This document shows positions 10,607 to 13,107 of a DNA stretch of 40,858 bases, piece by piece. This DNA comes from Candidatus Neomarinimicrobiota bacterium. Its GTDB lineage: Bacteria; Fidelibacterota; SORT01. Both the position numbers and the translations under genes were made by a program. Every line of letters begins with the position of its first letter. The first letter of the stretch is position 1. The notes below the pieces were generated by a model. That model worked only from the letters and a program-made list of their open reading frames with translations. It had not been told where the DNA came from and did no database searches. The stretch lies in NCBI GenBank assembly GCA_022567655.1, contig JADFGO010000010.1, positions 1 through 40,858 on the forward strand. Reading direction: 5' to 3'.

Positions 10607-12007
<1,401 letters not shown>

Positions 12008-12051
12008 TTAGTCCTTGAATTATTCGATATTAAGATATCTGTAATTATCAA

Positions 12052-12152
12052 AACCGCTAAAGCGGTTAAAAGAAGTTGCTGTCTCACTAACCCCCGACTT
12101 AAGTCGGGGGTTAACGGCATGAAATATATAAATATGAACCGTTTTAACGGTT
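12052..12152. repeat. Symmetrical three-hairpin REP-like element inside the atp operon
   Basis: Three inverted repeats stand in a row. At 12052-12067 AACCGC and GCGGTT flank a TAAA loop. At 12088-12113 there is a perfect 26-bp palindrome whose core is CCCCCGACTTAAGTCGGGGG. At 12137-12152 AACCGT and ACGGTT flank a TTTA loop. The outer hairpins are near reverse complements of one another (one base of the arm differs), so the whole block is roughly mirror-symmetrical about the central palindrome. It fills most of the atpG-atpD spacer and codes for nothing visible. Confidence 0.75.
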
Positions 12153-12192
12153 TCGATAAAAGGTCGGTAATAAATATTTATCACTGCTTTCA

Positions 12193-13107
12193 TCAATCCT
12201 TCAGCGCTTCCGCTCCGCCGACTATATCAAGCAGGTCTCTCGTGATTGAACTCTGTCTCGCCTTGTTGTATGAGAGCTGCAGTTCTTCGATCATCTCCTC
12301 AGCGGCATCTGTTGCGTTTTCCATGGCGGTCATCCGAGCGCCCTGCTCGGATGCGTTGGATTCGAGAAGTATCCTCCACATCTGAACACCAAGATACTTG
12401 GGGACGATAGCGTTTACCACCGCTTCCACTGAAGGCTCAAAAAGCATATCACCGGATAACGGCGAAGCGTAATCCTTTTCGCTATCCTCATCATCTTCTT
12501 TTGCACCGGGCATAAATTCCTCCCTCGCGTCACCCGGTTTAAGCGGTAGAAAGCGTTCCGCTATCAGGTCCTGTTTTACCGCTGATTTGAACTCATGGTA
12601 AATCACGTCCACCCTGTCCAAGTCATGCGAAAGATATTGCGAACTGATGGTTTCCGTCACTTCCACTGCGTGATTGAAATTGAGCTCCTTCGAAAAATTT
12701 ATGTACGACGCTATCAGATCGTAATTCCGGTTTTTGAAGAAATCACGCGCCTTCCTTCCGACAGCGATCAGTTTCGTATTTTCCCTGCCGTTTGCCGCGA
12801 TTATCTCTTCGGCTTTGTGAAGAACGTTTGTGTTGAACGATCCGCAGAGACCCCGGTCCGAAGTCACAACTACCGTACAAAACTTCTTCGGTTCCCGTAT
12901 CGCCAATAACGGATTCAGCTCCGACTCCACTTGTGGTATCAAATCGTTTAAAAGGTCTCTTATCCTGTAAGCGTATGGTCTGGCTTGTATTATTGCTGCC
13001 TGCGCGCGTCTGAGCTTGACGGTGGCGACCATCTTCATTGCGCGGGTAACCTGTTCGATCCCCTTTACCGACGACATGCGGGATTTTATTTCTTTGAGTG
13101 TCGCCAC
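12193..13107 (-). CDS. atpG: ATP synthase F1 subunit gamma
   Basis: A 304-residue central-stalk subunit. The N-terminal helix ATLKEIKSRMSSVKGIEQVTRAMKMVA and the C-terminal EMIEELQLSYNKARQSSITRDLLDIVGGAEAL are the two halves of the rotor coiled coil. VVTSDRGLCGSFNTNV near 78 is the conserved globular-domain motif. An acidic insert near residues 200-225 (EFMPGAKEDDEDSEKDYASP) makes it slightly longer than usual. The start is GTG 13107, whose G shares a base with the atpA TAG stop, with GAGG just upstream. Confidence 0.96.
   Translation of the reverse strand: MATLKEIKSRMSSVKGIEQVTRAMKMVATVKLRRAQAAIIQARPYAYRIRDLLNDLIPQVESELNPLLAIREPKKFCTVVVTSDRGLCGSFNTNVLHKAEEIIAANGRENTKLIAVGRKARDFFKNRNYDLIASYINFSKELNFNHAVEVTETISSQYLSHDLDRVDVIYHEFKSAVKQDLIAERFLPLKPGDAREEFMPGAKEDDEDSEKDYASPLSGDMLFEPSVEAVVNAIVPKYLGVQMWRILLESNASEQGARMTAMENATDAAEEMIEELQLSYNKARQSSITRDLLDIVGGAEALKD

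Follow-up and report, generated by a model that had tools for sequence, protein, structure and literature searches.

A dispersed three-hairpin element in the atpG-atpD spacer of a Neomarinimicrobiota genome and its candidate link to Y---Q--HH Y1 transposases

REP elements and the domesticated transposases associated with them are best described for the GTAG/RAYT type, in which short, dispersed intergenic palindromes (REP, BIME, or REPIN), often arranged as inverted pairs, flank a Y1 HUH gene (RAYT, or TnpAREP) that occurs about once per genome. Recognition of hairpins on single-stranded DNA, as well as movement in trans, is established for the HUH/Y1 family. The IS200/IS605 elements (TnpA-IS200, subclass 1.1) have hairpins near the gene ends and occur as several near-identical gene-bearing copies, and TIR-type MITEs are short, non-autonomous, dispersed elements. 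In a 2018 survey (Quentin et al., 2018; PMC6006769), members of TnpA-Y1 subclass 1.2 are ∼148 aa in length, have the motif DH[VI]H and the signature Y---Q--HH, and come from hosts that include Bacteroidetes; the table of this survey gives “no” for REP, and the subclass is described there without IS200 ends or REPs. No publication linking subclass 1.2 with REPs was found in searches of an open-access library.

The element described here lies within an atp operon in the window, a stretch of 40,858 nucleotides that is contig C10 of a draft Candidatus Neomarinimicrobiota genome (2.14 Mb, 150 contigs, 96.6% complete). Named “Candidatus Neomarinimicrobiota” genomes encode transposases at zero distance from those of the relatives G044 and G121, which makes this phylum very probable. 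The ORFs give the minus-strand gene order atpB, E, F, H, A, G, D, C (gene names assigned by sequence recognition), separated in that order by 40 nt, 11 nt, an overlap, 19 nt, an overlap, 188 nt, and 3 nt. The 188-nt spacer (12005–12192, minus strand) separates atpG (gamma subunit; 12193–13107, minus strand) from atpD (beta subunit; 10607–12004, minus strand), and is the only sizeable gap in the run, all others being 40 nt or less, as the original prediction had noted. The predicted layout of three palindromes was also recovered within this spacer, with all three parts in place and far above chance. The outer hairpin (termed S) at 12052–12067, AACCGCTAAAGCGGTT (AACCGC-TAAA-GCGGTT; no strand assigned), has a 6-bp stem and a TNNA loop, and is the downstream S when read on the sense strand of the operon. 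The central palindrome, TAACCCCCGACTTAAGTCGGGGGTTA (12088–12113; no strand assigned), is perfect over 26 nt and contains a hairpin (termed B) with an 8-bp stem and a TNNA loop, CCCCCGAC-TTAA-GTCGGGGG (12091–12110), which a TAA/TTA extension on either side lengthens to the full palindrome. The other S hairpin, AACCGTTTTAACGGTT (AACCGT-TTTA-ACGGTT; no strand assigned), is at 12137–12152. The stems of the first S and of the central palindrome covary in a 33-row alignment of element copies. The outer arms (12045–12067 and 12137–12159) are 87% complementary, and the whole dispersed element spans 12045–12159, with minus as the best strand under our covariance model R1 (100.0 bits, compared with 95.3 bits for plus), of which this copy is one of the 33 training sequences. 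A 20-nt core occurs once in the window, where none is expected (0 in 100 shuffles), and the outer-hairpin pattern, allowing up to two mismatches, has exactly two matches in the window (0.13 expected), both of which are inside the block and free of mismatches.

These features could be taken to represent a regulatory RNA specific to this locus, which would have evolved in place within the atp operon and would act through pausing, processing, or stabilization. Folding is well beyond chance, both for the spacer RNA on the sense strand (z −5.8) and for the block DNA (z −6.8); the block sits in the sole large gap of the atp run, and one hairpin with a loose T-rich tail was scored as terminator-like on the minus strand. 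A classical intrinsic terminator was rejected as an identity for the block, with one weak match at an S hairpin and none at B. No Rfam family was found at the gathering threshold across the whole window, which rejects a known RNA family and counts against a regulatory RNA, and no sigma-70-type promoter was found in the atpG-atpD spacer. The comparison with related genomes is at odds with a regulatory RNA that evolved at this site: from the atpG stop codon to the Q.MGPVVDV motif of atpD, the distance is 210 nt in this genome, compared with 54 nt in G001, 57 nt in G002, and 57 nt in G003 (all sister genomes), and 37–88 nt in 24 further relatives. None of these 27 measured gaps contains a hairpin (loci L147 and L152 were not parsed, and no locus was obtained for 6 more of the 36 matched genomes). 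Because the gap is short and hairpin-free in all 27, the atp copy represents an insertion in this lineage, and the odd spacer of this operon is an insertion rather than a conserved control site. Together with the 15 genomic places occupied by the element (see below), the empty sites largely refute the in-place regulatory RNA, which we regard as very improbable; the inserted copy may still have a secondary effect on expression of atpD and atpC.

In the alignment, ∼150 extra nt appear immediately behind atpG, and the stretch upstream of atpD, AATTCAAGGA...ATG, is retained. The insertion thus leaves this upstream region intact and has probably been tolerated at this site, not selected for. Neither a duplication of the target site nor an exact end of the element could be identified, and with an insertion of ∼150 nt, some 35–50 nt beyond the element are unaccounted for.

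The element is widespread in the genome. The 20-nt core, allowing up to three mismatches, occurs at 13 places, and the outer-hairpin pattern at 23, with no match to the reversed-pattern control in either case. Of the 23 S-pattern places, 22 occur together with a B-type palindrome or belong to a two-hairpin remnant, and the lone exception (C53:13378) resembles a chance match. The S-B-S layout is present in 13 of 120 relatives (reversed controls gave 0 in every genome), with 13 copies in G002, which belongs to the same family and another genus, and 14 copies in G044. Model R1, built from 33 copies of which 8 from this genome and 13 from G002 match by construction, locates 15 places in this genome (with overlapping matches on C5 and on C20 each taken as a single place), 31 in G002, one in each of the incomplete genomes G003 and G004, and none in G001. 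The block is a dispersed element and not a local regulatory structure. Two checks proposed with the original prediction, a genome-wide search for copies and a comparison of the atpG-atpD spacer in relatives, therefore both bear out its reading of the block as a dispersed, REP/BIME-like mobile palindrome.

Fourteen of the 15 copies in this genome do not overlap any ORF of at least 100 aa, compared with 2213 of 3000 random windows from the same loci that do overlap one, and nearly all copies in this genome and the sister genus lie between genes. For a second copy in this genome (contig C40), G002 has a diverged version at the corresponding site and G001 has none; since this copy is common to this genome and G002, some copies appear to be old and inherited. 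This intergenic siting, and the retention of the C40 copy in two genera, might indicate that the hairpins are kept for a host function, whatever their origin (e.g., nucleoid or gyrase binding, or the formation of mRNA ends), and roles in supercoiling, termination, and mRNA stabilization have been hypothesized for other REPs (PMC3733652). Among the lineages measured, though, only this one has a copy at the atp site, and we consider maintenance for host function improbable.

Comparison of the 33 aligned copies defines an element of ∼100–115 bp with the layout S, ∼25 nt, B, ∼25 nt, S, in which S has a stem of 6–7 bp, B has a stem of 8 bp, and both have TNNA loops. The spacers between hairpins vary freely, and the hairpins do not. 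Across the three local stems, 98.9% of cells are paired and nine pairs have two-sided changes, compared with 17.5–50.1% pairing in slid controls. Where the search pattern did not constrain the bases, Watson-Crick pairs account for 129/132 in S and 127/132 in B, compared with 80/132 for long-range pairing between the two S hairpins. Base changes are thus compensatory within each local hairpin. The minimum-energy fold, in which the two outer hairpins pair with each other over a long range, was rejected as the conserved structure, because the changes preserve each local stem and break the S-S pairs. In the aligned copies, the two S hairpins are inverted with B in the middle, and the empty atp site suggests that the three may move as a unit. 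None of the 33 copies has an unpaired GT[AG]G foot next to an S or B stem, and the feet of the hairpins are instead TTA/TCA-like. The motif TTANTGA (up to one mismatch) is found to the right of B in 21/33 copies and to the left in 12/33, with the copies from this genome having been oriented partly by the motif itself. The element therefore resembles REP, BIME, and REPIN sequences in being a short, dispersed, intergenic palindromic array with inverted hairpins, and differs from these in the lack of the GT[AG]G foot, in its two alternating hairpin types, and in its TNNA loops.

The original prediction further held that the block is moved by RAYTs. The REP-like mobile character of the block stands; its attribution to RAYTs is not borne out as worded, because the lone RAYT in this genome sits among different palindromes, and in the sister genus it is an IS200-like Y1 gene, well below the RAYT cut-off, that has S and B hairpins on its flanks. 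The proposed search for a RAYT gene did identify one, which belongs to a different REP family. This gene, on the minus strand of contig C14 (C14:18482–18688; L014 1222–1782), encodes a protein of 186 aa and is the sole RAYT in the genome. The next gene is small and nucleotidyltransferase-like (Polbeta/NTP_transf_2), and the RAYT gene is set among GTCAGG...CCTGAC palindromes (GTCAGG...CCTGACTCGCA). The palindromes in its flanks are of the form GTCAGGGC-AA/TT-GCCCTGAC, and neither S nor B hairpins were found there. This palindrome family is separate from the S-B-S element: under a strict pattern with a TCGCA tail, it has 28 matches in this genome and 25 in G002, and none in the window. The RAYT might nonetheless move the S-B-S element as well, given that no other Y1 gene was found in the assembly and that it passes the NCBIfam RAYT cut-off (89.2 bits, cut-off 80), but its own flanking palindromes are of the other family, and the S and B hairpins of G002 flank a different, IS200-like gene. 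As the cognate enzyme of the element it is disfavored, and we judge such a dual role to be doubtful. Some of the GTCAGG...CCTGAC palindromes adjoin S-B-S copies.

In G002, the sole Y1 gene (L049 1486–1926; 146 aa) lies between two direct repeats that are ∼92–93% identical and have the form S-B-∼120 nt-B-S, with the stop codon of the gene located inside an S hairpin. Four of the 31 R1 places in G002 are those flanking this gene, and the B palindromes beside it are not identical to the dispersed B type of the same genome. A transposase gene flanked by two such S-B...B-S repeats corresponds to the arrangement of the RAYT-linked REPtron, in which the gene is flanked by the same palindromes. G001 and G044 likewise have one Y1 match each, with flanking S and B hairpins that share this geometry and differ in sequence. 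Two sites in the genome containing the window (L010 and L011, on C5 and C20) have a longer variant of the element, consisting of S, B, and a second B-type palindrome; this variant is ∼90% identical over 215 nt between the two sites and resembles the repeats flanking the G002 gene. Elsewhere in G002 (L172; C19:58890–60323), a 334-nt tandem duplication, 97% identical, holds two S-B-S copies.

The proteins linked to these hairpins pass the IS200 model NF033573 (88.6 bits in G001, 81.6 in G002, and 76.3 in G044; cut-off 55), and score below the cut-off of 80 for the RAYT model NF047646 (27.3 bits in G002 and 37.1 in G001, with no match listed for G044). Additionally, they differ from RAYT proteins in having the C-terminal signature Y---Q--HH rather than Y---NP. 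The G002 protein has DHVH and Y---Q--HH, with WA instead of WQ at the W motif. For the G001 enzyme, ISHp608 TnpA is one of the nearest relatives of solved structure, alongside other chains that bear the title transposase. Hairpins near the gene ends are shared with IS200/IS605 as well; the differences from that group are the single gene copy in each of G001, G002, and G044, the many gene-less hairpin copies, the arrays of two hairpin types, and the Y---Q--HH signature. This signature occurs in 50 of 53 proteins compared, of which 30 from the phylum were found using a profile of such proteins, and in 21 of the 23 from named genomes, a set that was found by N-terminal patterns only. Signature, DH[VI]H motif, length, and hosts correspond to subclass 1.2, as described in the survey cited above, and the assignment is by signature match; in addition to that description, many of the members here are flanked by TNNA hairpins, which are also dispersed. 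The cognate enzyme of the element is thus probably an IS200-class Y1 protein and not a RAYT, judging from these sequence comparisons.

We consider it likely that the atp block is a non-autonomous, REP/REPIN-like element that was inserted in this lineage, and that it would have been mobilized by a Y---Q--HH Y1 transposase rather than by a RAYT. In the proposed mechanism, an S-B-S element of ∼100–115 bp inserted into the atpG-atpD junction. A single-strand DNA transposase of the HUH/Y1 class with the Y---Q--HH signature may recognize the hairpins on single-stranded (lagging-strand) DNA, and may copy or move the element in trans. No Y---Q--HH transposase was found in the genome containing the window at E ≤ 1e-10 (assembly 96.6% complete), so the source gene would have been either lost from this genome or missed in the assembly.

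The element could instead spread passively, either as cargo of DDE-type MITEs or through recombination, without an HUH enzyme of its own. In G044 (L153–L166), 12 of the 14 three-hairpin copies are inside a ∼190-bp TIR-type MITE with near-identical ends (TTAGTGTCTGTCC...GGACAGACACTAA), i.e., one mobile element within another. These MITE-borne copies were spread by another transposase, which argues against a single mode of spread. Neither such TIRs nor a target duplication were seen at the copies in this genome or G002, however, and in G002 the similarity between copies ends near the S hairpins. TNNA hairpins also flank Y1 genes in several phyla. Passive spread alone therefore appears unlikely, and mobilization by a Y---Q--HH transposase remains the preferred reading.

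We analyzed the flanks of Y---Q--HH genes more broadly at 23 loci obtained by an N-terminal pattern scan of named genomes, which span Neomarinimicrobiota, Bacteroidota, Cloacimonadota, Acidobacteriota, Planctomycetota, and Chloroflexota, along with one unclassified bacterium. Up to 350 nt from the gene (23 kb), 38 hairpins combine a TNNA loop with a stem of at least 7 bp; at distances above 700 nt (65 kb), there are 0. This tally was made on the same 23 loci where the loop was first noticed, and is hence a count rather than a blind test. Hairpins with other loops at these loci number 9 near the gene and 11 far from it. At least one TNNA hairpin is present at 16 of the 23 named loci, on both sides of the gene at nine of them, and none was found at the other seven (L102, L103, L108, L111, L113, L115, and L120), of which L113 is limited in the sequence downstream of the gene and L102 in that upstream. 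Dispersed TNNA palindromes occur in all seven such genomes searched, each for one family of palindromes, at 9–88 places per genome (0–3 in reversed controls), and often as inverted pairs ∼90–190 nt apart. Among the low counts, three to seven places are in the vicinity of the gene or form imperfect stems, and dispersal in the poorest of the seven genomes is therefore modest. The richest of the seven, Planctomycetales bacterium MS499-59 (L112; 2.4 Mb), has 88 dispersed TNNA palindromes by one pattern.

These observations tip us, by a small margin in our own estimate, toward the existence of a second, separate REP system, in which Y---Q--HH (subclass 1.2-type) Y1 transposases would each maintain a cognate population of TNNA-loop hairpins, with two alternating types (S and B) in this lineage. 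These hairpins would be dispersed across genomes of several phyla, and such systems would have evolved from the IS200 side and not the RAYT side. If the hairpin link holds, the Y---Q--HH group, to which the 2018 survey assigned no REPs, would gain a substrate amenable to in vitro assays, and REP-like systems would prove to have arisen from the IS200 branch too.

In a tree of the 53 proteins, the presence of TNNA hairpins requires 7 changes, compared with 16.7 in shuffles (0/500 as low); L078, for which the sole TNNA match is the AT-rich GGCAAAATTGATTTTGCC, was labeled “none” before the tree was made, and if it is included, the hairpin label is on 22 of the 53 rows. The tree contains a nested, well-supported clade of 24 phylum members without TNNA hairpins. 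The G002 protein has a long branch (0.79) and is placed beside this hairpin-lacking clade with weak support (91/76). Some of these 24 proteins (HLYRINGVEDHIHI type; L083, L088, L093, L097, and L099) have a different flanking hairpin with a 3-nt loop, e.g., ACTATCGGTTGCACCGATAGT.
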